Assembly (NCBI GenBank): GCA_903933715.1
Contig: CAIZLD010000036.1
Span: forward strand, 1-64,000
Source: an uncultured Spartobacteria bacterium
Lineage (GTDB): Bacteria > Verrucomicrobiota > Verrucomicrobiia > Chthoniobacterales > Chthoniobacteraceae
Direction of reading: 5' to 3'
Length of the DNA: 64,000 nt
Position 1 is the stretch's first letter; the number at the start of each line of letters is the position of its first letter. The notes under the pieces were generated by a model. The model did not search any database. It was given only the letters and a program-made list of their open reading frames with translations, and had not been told where the DNA came from. Positions 3,109 to 58,482 of this stretch are shown here, piece after piece. A program made the translations under genes and the position numbers.

Positions 3109-5535
3109 CTATGCCTGAACCGCCGGGGAGTCGCCTTGTTTTTTGACTTCCTTGACGAGGTTGCTGCCCGTTCCGCGGCTCCACCACAGGACGATGGGCG
3201 AGGCGATGAAGATGGACGAGTAGGTTCCCACGACGATGCCGATCAGGATCGCCAGGGCGAAATCCTTGAGCGTCGCACCGCCGAAGAAGAAGAGGGCTCC
3301 CACGGAGAGGGCCGTCAACCCGGAGGTCAGCAGCGTGCGCGAGAGCGTCTCATTAATCGAGGCGTTCATGATGCTCTGGATGGTTCCCTTGCGGCCGCTG
3401 TGCAATCCTTCCCGGATGCGGTCGTAGACGACGATGGTGTCGTTGATCGAGTAACCGGCAATCGTCAGGATTGCGCCGACCATCACCAGCGAAAGCTCGC
3501 GCTGGCACAGGGAGAAGACGCCGACGGTGATAATGACGTCGTGGAGCACCGCGACAACGGCGCCAACGGCAAACGAAAGCTCAAACCGTGCCGTTACATA
3601 GACTAGAATGCCGAGGATGCCGAGCCCCAACGCGATGGCGCTGTTGCGGGCCAGTTCGCCGCCGACGAGCGTGCCGACGTGGTCGCGCTTGTGTTCCTTG
3701 AACCCGGCTTCCGGCATGGTTTGGACGAGGTGGGTCTTGATTTTCTCGGCGGTGTCAGTCGCGCTGCGGATCGCGATGTAATCGCCGCCGCCCGCTTCGT
3801 GTTCTTTTTGAATGATCGCGTCGTTGAGGCCGATTTTTGCAAGCTCGGCACGAACTTGGTGTTCGGTGACGTTCGCGTTGGCCTGGAGCATCAGCAGATC
3901 GCCGCCCTTGAAGTCGATGCCGAAGTTTTTCTCACCCCGGATGGCGAAGCTGGCGATGCTGATTGCGATCACCGCGAGGGAGATGCCAATCCAGAGGCGA
4001 CGCTTGCCCATGAAATCGATTTGCATCTTGTCGGAGATAAGGTGGTGCATTTTGACCCCCTTCAGGCCGAATTTCGCGATGCCCCAGTCAAAGCAGTTGC
4101 GCCCGACGATCATCGCGGTGAAAACCGAGGCAATGACGCCGACGATCAGCGTGATCGAGAACCCTTTGACCGGACCGGCGGCATACCAGAAGAGGATGCC
4201 CGCCGTGATGAGGGTGGTCGCATTGGCGTCAAAAATGACGGTGAACGCTTTGGAGTAAGCGCCTTGAATCGCTGCCGGGAACGATTTTCCCAAGGCGAGT
4301 TCTTCGCGGAGCCGCTCGAAGATGAGTACGTTGGCGTCTACGGCCAGGCCGATGGTCAGGATGATGCCGGCGATCCCGGGCAGGGTCAGGACGAAATTGA
4401 ACATCCCCATGATCCCGAGCAGGATGGCGACGTTCACCACCAGCGCGATGATGGCGAATAACCCGGCGAGCCGGTAATAAAGGGCCACGACCACGAGCAC
4501 CGCAAGAAGCCCGCCAATCCCGGCGTAGATGCCGCTGCGGATCGAGTCTTCGCCCAAGGTGCTCGAAGCGCTCCGTTCTTCTTCAATGACCACGGGAACC
4601 GCGAGCGGGTTTTCAAGGACGCTGGCCAGGTTTTGCGCTTCTTTTTGCGTGAACCGGCCGGTGATGGAGGCGTTGCCGCCCCAGATGGCGTCGCGGATCA
4701 CCGGGGCGCTCTGAATCTTGCCGTCGAGCAGGATGGCAAACCGTTCGCCGACGTGAGCGGCCGTCAGTTTGCCAAAAAGATCGGCCCCTTCCTTGGTGAA
4801 TTGGAGGGCAACGCCGTACCCTTGCTGATCATAAACCGGACGACCGCTTTTGACATACTTGCCTTCGATGTCGATCTTGGTTTTGACGAGCAGCTTGGAT
4901 TCAACTTTCTCCCCGTCGCGGGTGCTTTCCTCGGTTTCGATCCGATAACCGGGAGGAATGGGGGCTTGGCCGCTTTCGATGGCTGCGATCAACTGATCGC
5001 TCTGAGGGTGAACGAGGCGGAATTCGAGCTTCGCGACTTTCCGCAACTGTTCGCGGGCTTCGGCGATTTTCTCGGCGTCCAGGCCGGGAATCTGAACCAG
5101 AATACGGTCTGCCCCTTCAGGGGTAATGACCGGTTCGCTGACGCCAAATTGATCGACGCGCTTGCGGATGACTTCCACCGCTTGGTCGAGAACTTCCTTG
5201 CTGGGGGCGAGCCCTTCCTCCTTTTTGAGACGGATCAGGAACGAGGTGCCGCCCTTCAGGTCGAGCCCGAGGTTGATTTTCTGTTTGTATTCGTAGGCAA
5301 CCGGCTGGGCAGGGGAGGCTGCTTTGGCCGGATTGCCGATTTCCGGCACGGCGGGGCTTTTCTCGGTCTGCTTGACCACCTTGACGGGCCAGATGGCCTG
5401 GATTGAGATCGCCAGGATGACCAGCGTCAGGATGGTCCCCAACAGCCGACGGCGCGAGGCGAAGTCGGTAGCGAAATACCAAAAGAAGAGGATCAGGGTA
5501 AGTAAACCGGCAAAGAAGGTCTGGGTCGGACTCAT
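3109..5535 (-). CDS. secDF: Fused protein translocase subunit SecDF
   Basis: This 808-residue membrane protein joins SecD and SecF in one chain. It uses the proton gradient to pull secreted proteins out of the SecYEG channel. The first transmembrane segment lies in residues 5-25 and a second at about 33-52. The P1 head follows, with GLDLKGGTSFLIRL near residue 92, and then a block of transmembrane helices containing GLAVDANVLIFERLREE, the SecD signature. The SecF half starts near residue 500 and has GIDFKGGDLLML and the second helix block with GYSINDTIVVYDRIRE. Fusion is common in several phyla, including this one. yajC lies 64 bp upstream on the same strand, so a yajC-secDF operon is likely. 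Confidence 0.97.
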   Translation of the reverse strand: MSPTQTFFAGLLTLILFFWYFATDFASRRRLLGTILTLVILAISIQAIWPVKVVKQTEKSPAVPEIGNPAKAASPAQPVAYEYKQKINLGLDLKGGTSFLIRLKKEEGLAPSKEVLDQAVEVIRKRVDQFGVSEPVITPEGADRILVQIPGLDAEKIAEAREQLRKVAKLEFRLVHPQSDQLIAAIESGQAPIPPGYRIETEESTRDGEKVESKLLVKTKIDIEGKYVKSGRPVYDQQGYGVALQFTKEGADLFGKLTAAHVGERFAILLDGKIQSAPVIRDAIWGGNASITGRFTQKEAQNLASVLENPLAVPVVIEEERSASSTLGEDSIRSGIYAGIGGLLAVLVVVALYYRLAGLFAIIALVVNVAILLGIMGMFNFVLTLPGIAGIILTIGLAVDANVLIFERLREELALGKSFPAAIQGAYSKAFTVIFDANATTLITAGILFWYAAGPVKGFSITLIVGVIASVFTAMIVGRNCFDWGIAKFGLKGVKMHHLISDKMQIDFMGKRRLWIGISLAVIAISIASFAIRGEKNFGIDFKGGDLLMLQANANVTEHQVRAELAKIGLNDAIIQKEHEAGGGDYIAIRSATDTAEKIKTHLVQTMPEAGFKEHKRDHVGTLVGGELARNSAIALGLGILGILVYVTARFELSFAVGAVVAVLHDVIITVGVFSLCQRELSLVMVGAILTIAGYSINDTIVVYDRIREGLHSGRKGTIQSIMNASINETLSRTLLTSGLTALSVGALFFFGGATLKDFALAILIGIVVGTYSSIFIASPIVLWWSRGTGSNLVKEVKKQGDSPAVQA

Positions 5536-51586: not shown

Positions 51587-51647
51587 GCGGTGGAGGATAC
51601 GGGAGCGGGCGGCACAGGAAAGGAAAAATTCAGGGGAAGTTTCTCGC

Positions 51648-51720
51648 AAAGACGCAAAGCCGCAAAGGGAAAGTCAACGGAACTCCTCTTCTTTGCGCCT
51701 TTGCGTCTTTGCGAGAGAAT
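51648..51720. repeat. TTTGCGTCTTTGCGAGAG-type repeat upstream of purB
   Basis: Inverted copies (CTCGCAAAGACGCAAAG at 51648-51665 and CTTTGCGCCTTTGCGTCTTTGCGAGAG at 51692-51718) form a long imperfect hairpin. The same words occur at 90-133 and 11310-11335. The remaining bases to 51757 show nothing else. Confidence 0.65.
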
Positions 51721-51757
51721 AAAACTACGGATGTTGCCGCAATTCTGACCCGGCATT

Positions 51758-51766
51758 AATGCCTAT
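51758..51766. repeat. Left target-site duplication of the defence transposon
   Basis: TAATGCCTA here is repeated exactly at 57391-57399, directly abutting the two outer ends of the inverted repeats. Nine bases is the usual duplication made by IS1-family transposases. Confidence 0.85.
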
Positions 51767-51791
51767 TAACTGGCCTACTTTGCTGCACCTC
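51767..51791. repeat. Left terminal inverted repeat
   Basis: The 25 bases match the reverse complement of 57366-57390 at 24 positions; the single difference is position 16 (T here, C in the right end). Confidence 0.88.
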
Positions 51792-51934
51792 AAAAGGCGG
51801 GTTGCGACAAGTTTCGCATTATGCTGATTCTGAACGGCTTGCGATTAGGGATATGACAGGAGAAGCGGCGGATTGCTGGTTTTAAGCCGGCCCGCCCTCT
51901 CTGTAATTCCAAAGCCTGAAGGTTCAGACCGCCC

Positions 51935-53704
51935 TTATTTCAGTTTCTGCACCGTCCACTTCCAGCGTTTGTAGGCCTGAGCCATGCAGAAATCAAAGGC
52001 CGCCTTGGTTCGCAGAAAGTCATACCGTTGCTGCTCCATCTTTTCACGGTAGGGCTCCGCCGCCACGAGATCGCTTAACAGGGTTCGGACACGGTTGACC
52101 GCCAGGCCGACCAGCCACTGCATCAGCCCCGCCTCGAACTGGATTTTCGTCCCGAACGCCTCGGCACGGGCTTCCAGTTCGGGGTCGTTCAGCATCCCCT
52201 GGCACACCAAAGCCCAAATCAGGTTGCGGGCCCGCCGGGCGAAAAAGTATTTCTGATACCCCTTGGCGACGATTTCATCCGTGAGTTTGCGAAGTCGGAA
52301 CTGCGCCTTGTAACAAAGCAGAATCATACGGGAGTCGGCACTGAGCCGCCCCTTCCCGAAGACCGCCGAATAGGCTTTGTCGTCCTCAAAGATTTCGGAC
52401 AGACGGGCGGCCTTGTCCACTTCCCCGTCAGCAATCAGGAAGGTGCTGGCGAGCAGCCGAAGTTCGATGGCCTTCTGCTGCTCAATCTCCATCCGTTCCA
52501 AATCCTCGTCCGTAAGGTTGTGAAAGGCGTTCTCCTGCCGCTGGTAGTAGATTTTGAGGTCGGTCTGGAACTTGTCGGCCAATTCCAACTGAATCAGGTC
52601 GTTCGCCCGCAACGCCCAAGGCTTGACGGGGTTCTGCCGGTTGTTGTTGACGGTGACGGTGATCACGAACTCGTCGCTCGCCTGGGTGATGATGCGGCAG
52701 ATCACCTCGATTTCCTCCAGCCTCGCCCGATTGGTTTTCAGTTTCGGGTGGTCGGCGAACTTTTTCAGGAACCCGTTGAAGGACGTGACCGTTTGGGCTC
52801 CGTTCAGCACCCGTGGCTCGGTGATACGGTAACCGTGCTCGCCCTGTTCCAGACTCTGGGCATAGACGGTGATCCCGTTGTGGTTGAACAGGAACACTTC
52901 GGGCGACAGTTTTTCGTCCAGGACGATCTCTTTGAGGGAACGGATGATGGCACGGTTCGGGGCCTCGTCCCCGGCCAGCCCAGAGCGGATGTTCCGGTCG
53001 AAGAGCCGTTGCCGCATTTCCTCGAACATGGCGTTCAACTGGTGGAGTTTGACCGAGCCGACGTGCATCACCTGCCCCTCCGGGCCGCACTTTTGGAGGG
53101 GGGCGGCGAAATCAATGGCGTAGGTGTGGGTTTTCGTCGCAACCGTCACGCCGCCGATGTGGCCGTGGGCGGAGCGGTAATCAATGACCAGATTCACCTC
53201 CCGCCCGAAAAACTCGTCAATGAGGTATTTCTTCGTCTCCAAATCCTCCCGCAGTTTTTCAAGCACGGTGCTGTTTTCGGCGGTTCGGGTGTCGCCACGG
53301 AAGACGAAGCGGATATAGACCCCCGCCACAATCGCCTTCTTCTCCATCAGGACGCTTTTGAGTTGGAGCAGGGCCTGGTTCTGCTTGGCATCCTGGAACG
53401 ATCCGACGAAAATACGGTCCAGGCCGACCTCCATCATCCGCCGGTAGGAATCCTTGAACAGGGACGCATCCTCCGACCACTTGAATTGATACAGGTAGAG
53501 GTTGCACGTCTTCGGATCCAGATAAAAGGCGTCAAACCCGTAGTCGCCACCTCCGAACGTGCTGTGCAGCAGGGCGGTTTCCGTGTCTATCGCATGCTCG
53601 TTTTCAAGGAACAGGGGGGCGAAATAGTCGTTGCGAACGCCTCCATACTCACGCTTGAAGTCCGCAAACGCCTGGTCAATGGCCTGGTCGGTGATTTTGC
53701 TCAT
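51935..53704 (-). CDS. AIPR-family abortive phage infection protein with N-terminal nuclease-like region
   Basis: This 589-residue protein carries the AIPR core: VFLFNHNGITVYAQSLEQG, then RVLNGAQTVTSFNGFLKKF and the VTVNNNRQNPVKPWALRAND segment. AIPR proteins are linked to phage resistance and are often found beside restriction systems. The N-terminal part (GGGDYGFDAFYLDPKTCNLY, then LYQFKWSED, about residues 50-80) has the D...QxK pattern of Mrr-like PD-(D/E)xK nucleases, suggesting DNA cleavage; this is inferred. It is divergent from the restriction-modification gene across about 200 bp and is inside the transposon. Confidence 0.82.
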   Translation of the reverse strand: MSKITDQAIDQAFADFKREYGGVRNDYFAPLFLENEHAIDTETALLHSTFGGGDYGFDAFYLDPKTCNLYLYQFKWSEDASLFKDSYRRMMEVGLDRIFVGSFQDAKQNQALLQLKSVLMEKKAIVAGVYIRFVFRGDTRTAENSTVLEKLREDLETKKYLIDEFFGREVNLVIDYRSAHGHIGGVTVATKTHTYAIDFAAPLQKCGPEGQVMHVGSVKLHQLNAMFEEMRQRLFDRNIRSGLAGDEAPNRAIIRSLKEIVLDEKLSPEVFLFNHNGITVYAQSLEQGEHGYRITEPRVLNGAQTVTSFNGFLKKFADHPKLKTNRARLEEIEVICRIITQASDEFVITVTVNNNRQNPVKPWALRANDLIQLELADKFQTDLKIYYQRQENAFHNLTDEDLERMEIEQQKAIELRLLASTFLIADGEVDKAARLSEIFEDDKAYSAVFGKGRLSADSRMILLCYKAQFRLRKLTDEIVAKGYQKYFFARRARNLIWALVCQGMLNDPELEARAEAFGTKIQFEAGLMQWLVGLAVNRVRTLLSDLVAAEPYREKMEQQRYDFLRTKAAFDFCMAQAYKRWKWTVQKLK

Positions 53705-53908
53705 TGGGAATAGGGGGAGAAAGGGGCAGTTTCAGGAACCCGCCCCGGCTGTGCAAGCAAATTAGGCCCCGACCCGACACCATCCCCCGGCGGTGCGGGT
53801 GAATCAAGCCCCGACCGCCCAATAGCAGGGGGCGTATCTTGGCTTGCGTGGGAGCCTCGGCCAGTCGTGGCCGCGGGGGTGTGCAAAAATTGCCTGTATC
53901 TGCTGGGG
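53705..53908. promoter_or_regulatory. Divergent control region of the two defence genes
   Basis: About 204 bp separate the AIPR start from the chosen start of the restriction enzyme. The stretch is GC-rich with direct repeats around CCCCGACC (53768-53775 and 53811-53818) and a GGCCAGTCGTGGCC dyad at 53859-53872. No clear -10/-35 pair stands out. Control of both genes from here is plausible but not shown. Confidence 0.35.
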
Positions 53909-56362
53909 ATGAGCATTTCCGCAGAACTCCCCCTCGCACCCCTCCATCAGGAGCACTTTTTTGAAGATCCCACCTGCCTTCAGGTCAAAAAGCCGGAAAT
54001 AGACACGGCACCTATGACAAGGCACGAAATCATCAGTGTTGTCGGCAAGCAGTATTACACGAGCAATCTTGAAAACGGCGAGTTCAGTTATCCCCGAGCT
54101 TTCAAAGACGCTGGGAAAGAGTTCGTCAGTCGAGCAAAACCTGGGAAAACGGACCACATCCGCCTAGACCTTCGGTTCGTGGATGGTGCGGTTAGCGTCC
54201 TCATCGAAACCAAGGACAACTTTGACAGGTGGAACGCCGAAGCTACGGTTGAACAATTACGGGGATACGCCGCTTACGAAAAGGAACTGACTGGAAATAA
54301 AATTGTGGTCATCTTGGCAAACACGCACGATGACCGCATCAAGGTGTGGTGGGGGAGTGATCTATTATTCGACGACTCCCATCAATTGAAGAACCAATAC
54401 AAACTCAAGACATTTACTGAATACTCAGAACTTTACACGGCCACGACCAACGACCGAGAACAGGTTATAAAGAACACCTATTCCCTGAATGAGATTTTGC
54501 ACAAGCATGGAATCGGGGAGAAGATAAGGAGTCAATTTGTCGGAACTTGCCTCTTGGCCTTGAATAAGGAATTGAAGTTTGAACGCCTTTCGACGAAAGT
54601 GATTATCTGTGGTATTGAGGAGGCCATAACGGAACTACTCGAAAAGGACCTTAACAAGGCGGTTAAACTAGCTATCTTGAAAACCAAGGTCCTAGATTCC
54701 CAGGACGTGCGGTCTCTAAAACCCGAAGAAATGCAGGAAATCCTGCGCCATATTGACAGCAAAATTCTTCCGTATATCAACGCCAAGATTACGACAGGGC
54801 AGGACATATTAAACTTGTTTTTCACTACGTTCAACAAGTTTGTCGGAAAGTCCGACAAGAACCAAGCGTTCACCCCGGATCATATAGTGCATTTTATGAG
54901 TCAAGTTGTAGGGGTCAACCGTCATTCGCGAGTCCTAGACCCGTGTTCTGGTAGTGGCACTTTCTTGGTTCGCGCGATGACAGAAGCATTAGACGATTGT
55001 GCGGATGAACAGGAAAGGAACACCCTTAAAAAAACTCAGATATATGGCATCGAGTTTGAAGAAACCGCGTTCGGCCTATCAACGACGAACATGCTGATAC
55101 ACGGCGATGGCAACTCAAATGTTAAGCAGGGCAGTTGCTTTGAGGCAAAGCAATTCATAGAGGAAGCCCGCATCAATGTCGTTTTGATGAACCCACCATA
55201 CAATGCCCAGCGCAAATGCTGTGATCCAGCTTACGTCACGAATTGGGACCCGAAAACCAAAGAAGACCCTTCTCAGGGCTTCCATTACGTCCATTATGTC
55301 GCCTCTGTTGTGAAAACTGGCAGGTTGGCCGTCTTGCTGCCTATGCAGTGTGCCATCGGGACATCAAAAGAAATACAAGCGTTTAAAGAAAAAATGCTGC
55401 AAGAGCACACCCTCGACGCCGTGTTTTCGCTCCCCCCTGACATATTCCACCCTGGTGCAAATGCCAGTGCCTGTTGTATGGTCTTCACCCTTGGGGGCAG
55501 ACACAACAATGCCGTGCAGCCCACATTTTTCGGGTATTACAAAGACGACGGTTTTATAAAAAGGAAGAACCTGGGCCGCGTAGAGAAAACCAAGCCCAAT
55601 TCATCTGAGGGGGTATGGGCTGACATTGAGTCGCATTGGCTAGACCTGTATCGGAACCGAAAAGAAGAAGCCGGTCTTTCCGTGGTCAAGTCTATTACAG
55701 CAAAGGACGAATGGTTGGCGGAAGCATACATTGAAACAGATTACTCAAAAATCACGGCTCAAAATTTTGAGCGTGCGGTCATTGAGTATGCGGGGTTCAG
55801 TATCAGGGTGGGGATACTAGACGAAAAGTCCATTCGGATCCGAGAGAAGATAGCACTACCGCTCGATACATCTAATTGGAGGGATTTTAAAGTTGGTCAA
55901 TTATTCCGGATCGAACCGACCAAGGGGGTTACTACGGACGACTTGGCTGAAGGGAACGAGCTTCCATACATTGCCGCAAAAAAAGATAGCAACGGTCTCG
56001 AAATGATGTGCTCAAAAGAGGGAAACGAGGACTTTATTTCAACGGGGAACTGTGTCGTTTTTGTCCAACTTGGGCAAGGAAGTGCCGGGTATTCAACATA
56101 CCAGGGAAGTGATTTTATCGGGATGAACGGCAAGACATCGTGCGGTTACAACGAACAACTCAACAAATACATTGGACTGTTTTTGGTTGCGATTCTTGAC
56201 CTAGAAAGGCCGAAATTTTCATTTGGCAGAAGTTGGACAGGGGAACGCCTAAAAAACACGACCATACGGCTTCCTTCGATAAAAAATGGCGGTGACCATA
56301 TTCCCGACTGGTCGTTTATGGAACATTACATTAAGTCTCTTCCATACAGCGACCTGATATAA
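53909..56362 (+). CDS. Single-chain restriction-modification enzyme (type IIG/BcgI-like, N6-adenine methylase)
   Basis: This protein of about 817 residues joins three activities. An N-terminal PD-(D/E)xK nuclease-like region has RLDLRFVDGAVSVLIETKDN with the D and ExK residues. The N6-adenine methylase has motif I VLDPCSGSGTFLV (about residue 346) and motif IV NPPY (about 428). The C-terminal 130 residues look like one target-recognition domain of an S subunit (WRDFKVGQLFRIEPTKG, then FSFGRSWTGERLKNTTIRLP). One recognition domain suggests an asymmetric site. The start is uncertain: GTG 53867, ATG 53909 or ATG 54014, none with a good Shine-Dalgarno. The gene is visibly AT-richer than the host genes, consistent with transfer. 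Confidence 0.85.
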   Translation: MSISAELPLAPLHQEHFFEDPTCLQVKKPEIDTAPMTRHEIISVVGKQYYTSNLENGEFSYPRAFKDAGKEFVSRAKPGKTDHIRLDLRFVDGAVSVLIETKDNFDRWNAEATVEQLRGYAAYEKELTGNKIVVILANTHDDRIKVWWGSDLLFDDSHQLKNQYKLKTFTEYSELYTATTNDREQVIKNTYSLNEILHKHGIGEKIRSQFVGTCLLALNKELKFERLSTKVIICGIEEAITELLEKDLNKAVKLAILKTKVLDSQDVRSLKPEEMQEILRHIDSKILPYINAKITTGQDILNLFFTTFNKFVGKSDKNQAFTPDHIVHFMSQVVGVNRHSRVLDPCSGSGTFLVRAMTEALDDCADEQERNTLKKTQIYGIEFEETAFGLSTTNMLIHGDGNSNVKQGSCFEAKQFIEEARINVVLMNPPYNAQRKCCDPAYVTNWDPKTKEDPSQGFHYVHYVASVVKTGRLAVLLPMQCAIGTSKEIQAFKEKMLQEHTLDAVFSLPPDIFHPGANASACCMVFTLGGRHNNAVQPTFFGYYKDDGFIKRKNLGRVEKTKPNSSEGVWADIESHWLDLYRNRKEEAGLSVVKSITAKDEWLAEAYIETDYSKITAQNFERAVIEYAGFSIRVGILDEKSIRIREKIALPLDTSNWRDFKVGQLFRIEPTKGVTTDDLAEGNELPYIAAKKDSNGLEMMCSKEGNEDFISTGNCVVFVQLGQGSAGYSTYQGSDFIGMNGKTSCGYNEQLNKYIGLFLVAILDLERPKFSFGRSWTGERLKNTTIRLPSIKNGGDHIPDWSFMEHYIKSLPYSDLI

Positions 56363-56394
56363 TGTTGGTGGGGCCTAAATGGGTGTGACAAATG

Positions 56395-57261
56395 TCAGGC
56401 GAAGGCGTAGTTGTTGTTGAAGGCCACGTATAAATCCAGGTGGTCCTGCAAGCAGGCAGCCTTTTTGCTGGCCGACCACGTTTTCCGGGCCAAACGGGAG
56501 AGGTCGGCCCGCAGTTTGGCACAGATGTGGTTCAACTTGAACAGCGGATCCCGGCTGCCAGTCGGCCCCTTTCGGCTTGGATAAACCTGATGAGCCGCCT
56601 CAGGCAGGATGGTCTGGATGTATTTCTTGTAGGCGGCCTTTTTGTCGGTGGCGACGGTCAATTTGGGTTTGGCAACTATTGCGACCTCCCGAAACACGGC
56701 CAAGGCGGCAGCCCGGCGGGTGTCCTGCCGCCGCCCATATCGTTGGACGCTGGTGTGGGCGGGTTTCCCGTGGCAGTTCATTTCCGCCACTTTCACCCCT
56801 ACAATCTGACCCGTTTTCGCCCGCACGGCCAAAGCGATGGAGAGCGGTAGCAGTTTGTTCCGCTCATAGGTCTCCATTTCGTCGAACTGGACGTAGGAGG
56901 TTTGGAACTCCGCCCCTTTGAGGTGCTCGGCGTGGGCGGCCCGTGCTCGTGCCGCCAGCCATTCGAGTTTCTTGGCAACCGTTCGGCGGCTCACCCCCGC
57001 TAAGTCAGCCGTCCGCCGCATCGTCACCCCTGAACAGAGCAACTTGGCAATCAGGGCGTTCGCCTTGGGCTTGTGCTGCCGATAGGTGGCCGTGCCGGTG
57101 TGCGACCCGAAATAGCGGCCGCAAGCCTTGCAGCGGTAGCGGGGCACGGGCTGGCGGTCGAACTTGGTTCGGTAATACCCTTTCTTCGCATACCAGTCAG
57201 GAGCGGGAGCCCCGTGGTGCTTGCAGGCGGGGTTGGGACAGGTGAGCGGAGGCGTGAACAT
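56395..57261 (-). CDS. IS1-like transposase with zinc ribbon
   Basis: This 288-residue protein starts with a zinc ribbon of two Cys pairs (CPNPACKHHG and YRCKACGRYF) and a helix-turn-helix (TADLAGVSRRTVAKKLEWL). The DDE-type catalytic domain has a first Asp in VQFDEMETYE and a second in VATDKKAAYKKYI. The C-terminal block RKTWSASKKAACLQDHLDLY aligns with the region that usually supplies the catalytic Glu, but here Ala seems to take that place. It is the only recombinase in the transposon, and its family makes 9-bp duplications as found here. Confidence 0.8.
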   Translation of the reverse strand: MFTPPLTCPNPACKHHGAPAPDWYAKKGYYRTKFDRQPVPRYRCKACGRYFGSHTGTATYRQHKPKANALIAKLLCSGVTMRRTADLAGVSRRTVAKKLEWLAARARAAHAEHLKGAEFQTSYVQFDEMETYERNKLLPLSIALAVRAKTGQIVGVKVAEMNCHGKPAHTSVQRYGRRQDTRRAAALAVFREVAIVAKPKLTVATDKKAAYKKYIQTILPEAAHQVYPSRKGPTGSRDPLFKLNHICAKLRADLSRLARKTWSASKKAACLQDHLDLYVAFNNNYAFA

Positions 57262-57365
57262 CTGTAATATAGATACGGGGAGACTTCAAACGTTTGAAGC
57301 AGGATGCGGGCCAAAACCCGCCCGCCCTGTATTTATCGGGCGTTTCGCTTCGGGTTCACTTTTCT

Positions 57366-57390
57366 AGGTGCAGCGAAGTAGGCCAGTTAA
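57366..57390. repeat. Right terminal inverted repeat
   Basis: Inverted copy of the left end, immediately followed by the second TAATGCCTA duplication (57391-57399). It is about 105 bp upstream of the transposase start codon, so it may also carry the transposase promoter. Confidence 0.88.
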
Positions 57391-57396
57391 TAATGC

Positions 57397-58482
57397 CTAA
57401 ACCGCCTCGTAATCGACCCAATGGATCAGCGGGAGGAGGACGGGGCGGGCGTCGTGATGCCAGGTGAGCGGCGGGTATTGCATTCGGCCGATGGGGCAGA
57501 TGCGCGAGACGCCGGTCAAGCCCACTTTCTCCGCGTTCTCGGGGGTGGCGGGGTGGATGCCGACGGTGCTCAGGTGCTTGTAGACCCGGCGAACCGCCAA
57601 GGGCAGGTTATCCGGCAGCGGCTTGACGTAGACGACCCGGTTAAGGCATGAGGCCATGAATTGCGGCTCCGGATCGTAGAGGACGGTCCATGCGGTCGAG
57701 CCCGGGCTTTCCCAAAGCGCGGGGGCTTCCCCCGGTTCGCAATGCATGGAGGCGCGGAAGGCGAAATCTTTGCGCAGGGCGGCGATATCGGTTTGCTCCC
57801 CGAGCGTCACCGGGCCGCGCGGGTTGGCCTGCTCAAACTCCTCCATCGCCTTCGCGAGCCGCTCGGCGTATTCGCGGGCAATCTTCGGTTCCACGTAATA
57901 AACATGAGGCGAGAGACACCCTTGCTGGTTGAAAAGCGAGGCGGAGAGGGCGGCATCGGCTACGGAAGCGAACTCCGGGTCGTCGAAAACGACGCCAAAA
58001 CTCAAGCGGTGGGCATGCGGGATGAAACGCTGGTCGGCGCGGACCCGTTTGCGAAAATGCTCCACAGTTTCATCCCGGCCAAAGACGATCACCGCATCGG
58101 CTTGGTGGAGCCAGTCGCCACGCAATTCATTGGAAACGATGACCCGGCGGGCCAGTTCAAAAGGGAGTTGCTCGCAGAATTCTGCGATTTCGGGGAGTCC
58201 CTCGGACGGGATTTTGCACCAGTTGTATGCTCCCAGCAGCAATCCCCGGATCAAACTTTGAACTCCCGCGTGGGGGGTGTTGCCGCTGATAATATGCAGG
58301 ATCATGCACGGGCCGAGAGCGCGGGCGCGGTGTTCGCCATAAGGCAGGAACCGGTCGAGCGCATCCTCGTGGCCCAGTTCGGCCCGGACGAGCCCCATCA
58401 ATCCGTCCACCGTCACCGGTCCCAGCCAGGGAAAGTGGCGTGCGGCTTTGGCCAAATGCGTCGCAAGTTCGCGGGTCTGCAT
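57397..58482 (-). CDS. LuxC-like acyl-CoA reductase
   Basis: This 361-residue protein resembles LuxC-type fatty-acyl reductases of the aldehyde dehydrogenase superfamily. It has a nucleotide-binding MILHIISGNTPHAGVQSLIRG-type segment (near residue 60), the VIVFGRDETVEHFRKR stretch and the catalytic Cys in LFNQQGCLSPHVYYVEP. Reduction of an acyl-CoA or acyl-enzyme to an aldehyde is the family role. No LuxE partner is present in the window. Its TAG stop lies inside the 9-bp duplication made by the transposon, so the protein end is unchanged by the insertion. Confidence 0.8.
   Translation of the reverse strand: MQTRELATHLAKAARHFPWLGPVTVDGLMGLVRAELGHEDALDRFLPYGEHRARALGPCMILHIISGNTPHAGVQSLIRGLLLGAYNWCKIPSEGLPEIAEFCEQLPFELARRVIVSNELRGDWLHQADAVIVFGRDETVEHFRKRVRADQRFIPHAHRLSFGVVFDDPEFASVADAALSASLFNQQGCLSPHVYYVEPKIAREYAERLAKAMEEFEQANPRGPVTLGEQTDIAALRKDFAFRASMHCEPGEAPALWESPGSTAWTVLYDPEPQFMASCLNRVVYVKPLPDNLPLAVRRVYKHLSTVGIHPATPENAEKVGLTGVSRICPIGRMQYPPLTWHHDARPVLLPLIHWVDYEAV

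Follow-up and report, generated by a model that had tools for sequence, protein, structure and literature searches.

A probable cargo-bearing transposon of an IS1-related clade with one exchangeable slot for restriction-modification genes in an uncultured Spartobacteria bacterium

We analysed a window of 64,000 nucleotides, positions 1-64,000 of contig CAIZLD010000036.1 from an uncultured Spartobacteria bacterium (GCA_903933715.1). Positions 51766-57390 form an element of 5,625 bp, present as a single copy in its genome. Its terminal inverted repeats, TTAACTGGCCTACTTTGCTGCACCT and TTAACTGGCCTACTTCGCTGCACCT, match each other at 24 of 25 positions, and exactly three genes lie between them according to the ORF listing and Pfam. 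The features are listed below, with backbone blocks and cargo slot as delimited by comparison with L005, an element of a sister species.

51757-51765, no strand: target duplication, left copy TAATGCCTA, a perfect 9-bp match to 57391-57399 that fits the TA-N5-TA pattern of the relatives
51766-51790, no strand: terminal inverted repeat, transposase-distal end, 24/25 to 57366-57390
51766-51952, no strand: backbone block common with L005, last 187 bp read from the transposase side, 86% identity, length 187-188 bp
51935-53704, minus strand: AIPR/AbiU-type gene, 589 aa, cargo, its last codons inside the backbone block (PF10592, 4e-22; PADLOC AbiU, 5e-25)
51953-56394, no strand: cargo slot, 4,442 bp; no homology to what fills the 2,917-bp slot of L005
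53867-56362, plus strand: single-chain restriction-modification (R-M) gene, type IIG-like, cargo (N6_Mtase and Methylase_S; PADLOC REase_MTase_IIG, 2e-54)
56395-57261, minus strand: IS1-related transposase, 288 aa, with zinc ribbon, HTH and probable DDN catalytic domain (D127, D206, N244) (NF033558; alignment of 28 relatives; IS1 InsB profile match)
56395-57390, no strand: backbone block common with L005, first 996 bp read from the transposase side, 87.8% identity
57366-57390, no strand: terminal inverted repeat, transposase-proximal end, 24/25 to 51766-51790
57391-57399, no strand: target duplication, right copy TAATGCCTA, overlapping the stop codon of a LuxC-like gene

An earlier, sequence-only reading of this DNA had described 25-bp inverted repeats here; the 24/25 match was confirmed, and its left coordinates proved one base too high. 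The perfect 9-bp duplication that it had seen on both outer sides was found as listed, and its three genes (AIPR-type, fused nuclease-methylase-specificity, IS1-like transposase) were borne out by family searches. The LuxC-like gene (57397-58482) remains intact despite the target duplication over its stop codon. In L005 and in another relative, L006, the duplication also overlaps the stop codon of a neighbouring gene, whose frame is kept. Beyond the left end, at a distance of 40 bp, we observed a 26-bp near-perfect palindrome (TCTCGCAAAGACGCAAAG arms, 23-nt loop; 51642-51716). Within the window this motif recurs at ~11320 and 121-129, and it also occurs in L025, on another contig of the same genome; it is a REP-like dispersed repeat.

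The layout of IS1 and its catalytic DDE have been described (PMC12428005). IS1 was the best family for the window transposase, but the score stayed under the curated cut-off (NF033558: 54.3 bits vs 100), and this model was matched by all 28 relatives, at best with merely 2e-15. The catalytic domain is homologous to E. coli IS1 InsB and aligned over the whole domain (hhalign E 2.6e-6); in this profile comparison D127 and D206 correspond to both IS1 aspartates. Asn244, invariant in 28/28 relatives, stands at the position of the IS1 glutamate (IERHNLNLR), as assigned by an ungapped count back from the shared LR motif across a region where the profile alignment has gaps. The D, D and N are all invariant in the 28 aligned sequences, which therefore lack the catalytic DDE of IS1. 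The InsA/InsB frameshift layout is absent too, the transposases of the window and of the relatives being encoded by a single ORF. DDN variants occur in the IS1595 family as well. The Pfam and NCBIfam models of the IS1595/ISXO2 catalytic domain gave no match, and weak matches were restricted to the zinc domain shared by IS1 and IS1595. A match to TnsD was weak and confined to the zinc/HTH part, and structure prediction was of low confidence (mean pLDDT 52-55). We conclude that the transposase is an IS1-related, single-ORF enzyme of probable DDN type. Because it falls below the family cut-off, consists of a single ORF and has Asn for the catalytic Glu, we do not file it under the IS1 family. The earlier description as IS1-like thus holds for the relationship to IS1 and the InsB homology, but the enzyme belongs to a distinct clade with a DDN-type site and scores under the IS1 cut-off.

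With 79.7 bits for PF10592 against a Pfam cut-off of 25, the first cargo gene belongs to the AIPR family, a long-known companion of R-M systems (PMC2292703, PMC3506569). An N-terminal HEPN domain has been described for AIPR/AbiU1 (PMC3506569); residues 1-234 of the window protein gave no Pfam match. The single chain encoded by the second gene combines a nuclease, a methylase and one specificity domain (Pfam, PADLOC, motifs), the layout of type IIG enzymes. Its motifs D101...E114-T-K116 (nuclease) and NPPY (N6 methylase) are invariant in relatives, and since homologues begin at residue 50, the ATG at 54014 is the likely start of this gene. GC3 is 78% in the AIPR gene vs 50% in the R-M gene, which suggests that the two entered the slot separately. 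Further AIPR copies were found neither among 388 genomes of the phylum nor in viral contigs, and plasmids gave weak partial matches only. Relatives of the R-M gene (42-54% identity) occur in plasmids and in one viral contig, with no AIPR near those checked; because they stand without AIPR, the two genes are not established as a conserved two-gene system. The exact pair was seen once. From the gene families we infer that the cargo restricts phage.

The closest relative, L005 (G001:C104), lies in a Lake Pavin MAG of the same genus as the window genome. Its site, with an outer-membrane barrel gene on one side and an ExbD gene on the other, is unrelated to that of the window element. It has near-identical ends (24/25), its own perfect 9-bp duplication TAGTTATTA and a transposase 85% identical to that of the window. 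In the alignment of the two elements, the 996-bp backbone block runs precisely to the transposase stop codon, and both elements have GTGC(A/C)GAAACTG at the start of the last block; outside these blocks there are short scattered matches only. Together the blocks make up 996 + 187 = 1,183 bp, as long as an entire bare IS. The 2,917-bp slot of L005 holds another single-chain R-M gene (981 aa) and no AIPR gene. This enzyme and that of the window share 21% identity, in the methylase part only.

In the two sister elements, the point at which cargo interrupts the backbone is the same to the nucleotide. The terminal codons of the window AIPR gene and of the L005 R-M gene sit inside the backbone block in different frames, which fits independent captures at one place. 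As L005 has a different R-M gene and no AIPR, the cargo appears to be exchangeable, with the AIPR and R-M genes as one loading rather than a fixed gene set. In L005, the R-M cargo is bordered on both sides by the 6-bp direct repeat GTGCCG (element positions 997-1002 and 3914-3919), which does not border the window cargo. It is a possible footprint of cargo insertion; at 6 bp it is too short for the capture mechanism to be named from it.

Two further elements were found in Verrucomicrobiota. L006 (Opitutaceae UBA3033) has related ends and a perfect TAACCGTTA duplication; its transposase carries in-frame stops and a frameshift, and its passenger is one 193-aa ORF with a hydrophobic N-terminus (L006:7852-8433) that matched neither Pfam nor PADLOC. 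L300 (G1296, from the same order as L006) measures 1,674 bp and has related ends, a perfect TATGTCTTT duplication and one exported-looking 193-aa ORF, also with a hydrophobic N-terminus (L300:2423-3004). The interiors of L300 and L006, including the two 193-aa ORFs, showed no detectable relation. L300 is inserted in a sensor-kinase-like gene, and joining its flanks minus one duplication gave an open frame over the entire 722-codon fragment; of what was available, this comes closest to an empty site. Passengers are thus found in 4/4 Verrucomicrobiota elements (window, L005, L006, L300), in each case between IS ends and with one transposase, as in a transporter IS (tIS). The sequence-only reading had proposed a search for copies with the same ends, other flanks and 8-10 bp duplications. 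L005 is such a copy, and L006 and L300 are such copies with related ends.

True empty sites were sought in the genus. Among its four other genomes, none with a single TAATGCCTA was found. The LuxC-like and purB genes are both present in 3/4 of these genus mates, on separate contigs; in the fourth, G001, no full-length purB was found. No empty window site was found because the flanking genes do not stand side by side in the four genomes. L005 likewise had no true empty site: genus mates keep the gene on its right flank, and the left flank is elsewhere or absent.

Outside Verrucomicrobiota, L007 (Pseudobdellovibrio) is a bare IS of 1,041 bp with related ends and a perfect TATCTGATA. In Bdellovibrionota, the phylum of L007, the transposase was detected in 119/320 genomes, with up to eight copies each. 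We took 120 stretches around these transposases; the 125 matches scanned comprised these together with the window, L005, L006 and L007. Ends with a 9-bp duplication (one mismatch allowed) were seen in 24 and a short end pair without a matching duplication in 92, one of which encloses a short transposase fragment; 6 lay at contig ends and 3 were undelimited. Once the three Verrucomicrobiota elements are left out, 113 bare ISs of ~1 kb remain, 92 of them without a matching 9-bp duplication, a lack that may reflect decay or other insertion modes. The Bdellovibrionota ISs (L180-L299) have a matching end motif, with ends NNAACTGNCC, and no cargo was found in the copies examined. A perfect 9-bp duplication, as is typical of IS1, was present in 24 elements, viral-contig relatives included; these duplications are 81% A+T and tend to begin with TA and to finish with TTA.

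When the phylum and class of the window genome were sampled (388 and 384 genomes, partly overlapping), the only transposase match in both was the window's own genome, and the cargo clade is therefore rare. In a maximum-likelihood tree, the transposases of the four cargo-bearing Verrucomicrobiota elements fell into one supported clade (99/92), in which both R-M carriers (window, L005) were sisters (100/100).

Relatives of the IS were also observed in three viral contigs of 45-157 kb (L304:8131-9478, L305:9641-11089, L306:4301-5768), two of them with perfect 9-bp duplications; L304 has an additional 104-aa ORF upstream of the transposase. Given this location, large phages may carry the IS between hosts. 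The transposase had no match in plasmids. The end motif gave 81 single matches in viral contigs; the 80 scanned showed neither a transposase nor a convincing pair, and thus yielded no short non-autonomous derivatives.

Taken together, these results make it very probable that the element in the window is a unit transposon belonging to an IS1-related clade, a cargo-bearing or transporter IS with one exchangeable cargo slot. This reading is based on the observed ends, duplications, backbone/cargo mosaic, independent insertions and clade phylogeny. The slot has been filled twice by unrelated R-M enzymes, and two loadings are few. From the duplications and the different sites we infer that the element moves together with its cargo. 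The transposon with a dedicated transposase and two cargo genes proposed by the sequence-only reading is hence well supported by the ends, the duplication and L005, except that the gene pair is not a fixed set.

In the proposed mechanism, the zinc-ribbon/HTH part of the transposase would bind both ~25-bp ends, and the catalytic domain (D127, D206, N244) would join them to a TA-N5-TA-type target, leaving the 9-bp duplication. Everything between the two ends would be moved. The backbone is a complete IS of ~1,183 bp with one fixed slot, reaching from the transposase stop codon to the last 187 bp. In the window this slot is occupied by the genes of a type IIG-like enzyme and of a divergent AIPR/AbiU protein, and in the sister species by that of an unrelated single-chain R-M enzyme. 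The R-M enzyme would protect the cell by cutting unmodified DNA, the AIPR protein may add an abortive response, and the R-M cargo would help the element persist through loss-killing, much as restriction may have favoured the carrier in the IS-linked PaeR7I experiments (PMC3031569).

Alternatively, a bare IS might have inserted first, with the defence genes entering later in place, within an ordinary defence island, and never moving as cargo. The difference in GC3, which makes separate arrivals of the AIPR and R-M genes probable, would agree with such a history, as would the bare form of most relatives and the single occurrence of the gene pair. We nevertheless consider it unlikely: the cargo of both sister elements lies between identical backbone nucleotides, the transposase frame and both ends are undamaged, all four Verrucomicrobiota elements have passengers, and no further defence genes stood out near the window element in the ORF listing.

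A composite transposon or island between two IS copies, one of them degraded to its end, has nothing in its favour apart from a transposase near one end. This is very improbable, as there is a single transposase, the outer repeats are 25 bp rather than whole ISs, and the duplication is perfect; it was rejected because the L005 backbone explains both ends as those of one ~1.18-kb IS. The least probable explanation, that ends and duplication match by chance and the three genes are mere neighbours, was also rejected. By our own estimate, a 24/25 inverted pair with a correctly placed matching 9-mer is expected ~1e-11 times in 6 kb, and this expectation, together with three relatives with like ends and their own perfect 9-bp duplications, excludes a chance origin: the ends of the window element recur in L005 together with a separate duplication, and L006, L300 and L007 have ends related to them.

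The unit transposon resembles IS1 (InsAB') in the order of zinc ribbon, HTH and RNase H-type catalytic domain, in its ~25-bp ends and in its 9-bp duplications. It differs from IS1 in its single ORF, the Asn for the catalytic Glu, a score below the family cut-off, the TA-N5-TA target and cargo of up to 4.4 kb. The tIS, an IS with passenger genes, is a recognised concept that is best known in the IS1595 family (PMC7986276). Like a tIS, the window element combines one transposase and IS-type ends with passengers of no use for transposition (PMC7986276); unlike the IS1595 examples, its transposase clade is nearer IS1 by family search, and R-M genes are the repeated cargo of one slot. Tn7-like transposons frequently bear R-M cargo (947 listed; PMC8649781) and share with the window element R-M and other defence genes as exchangeable cargo (PMC8649781). 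They are large islands with TnsA/TnsB/TnsC and a dedicated attachment site, whereas the window element has none of these, one transposase gene and a size class of 4-6 kb. That the PaeR7I R-M system can travel with IS1, and that successful integration is selected for by restriction, has been shown (PMC3031569), but there a plasmid was integrated via chromosomal IS copies in the laboratory, and here the R-M gene is natural cargo inside an IS. The window enzyme, known from its sequence, joins nuclease and N6-methylase to one specificity domain in the same chain, as type IIG systems do; the difference is that its gene is borne by a transposon. In an incomplete literature search, no published account of R-M genes as cargo of an IS1-related element turned up. 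To our knowledge, both this vehicle clade and the repeated filling of one slot with R-M genes are new; the principle of an IS with passengers is already known.

The analysis points to a large clade of IS1-related ISs with a DDN active site that is abundant in Bdellovibrionota and that the general family models used match weakly. The spread of single-gene R-M systems between genomes is often inferred and seldom visible as a bounded unit. Here such a unit can be seen, ends and target duplication included, together with a sister unit in which the R-M gene has been swapped. Because the relative in the sister species holds an unrelated R-M gene in the same internal slot, the window element gives the impression of a simple vehicle with exchangeable immune genes, which opens the question of whether a minimal IS can act as an interchangeable carrier of immunity genes and how its slot is refilled. 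A more far-reaching and tentative proposal is that this Verrucomicrobiota lineage is a dedicated fixed-slot vehicle that repeatedly takes up complete single-gene R-M systems, with loss-killing stabilising it and AIPR adding an abortive layer. If true, it would be an unusually small, self-mobile, cargo-swapping defence transposon.
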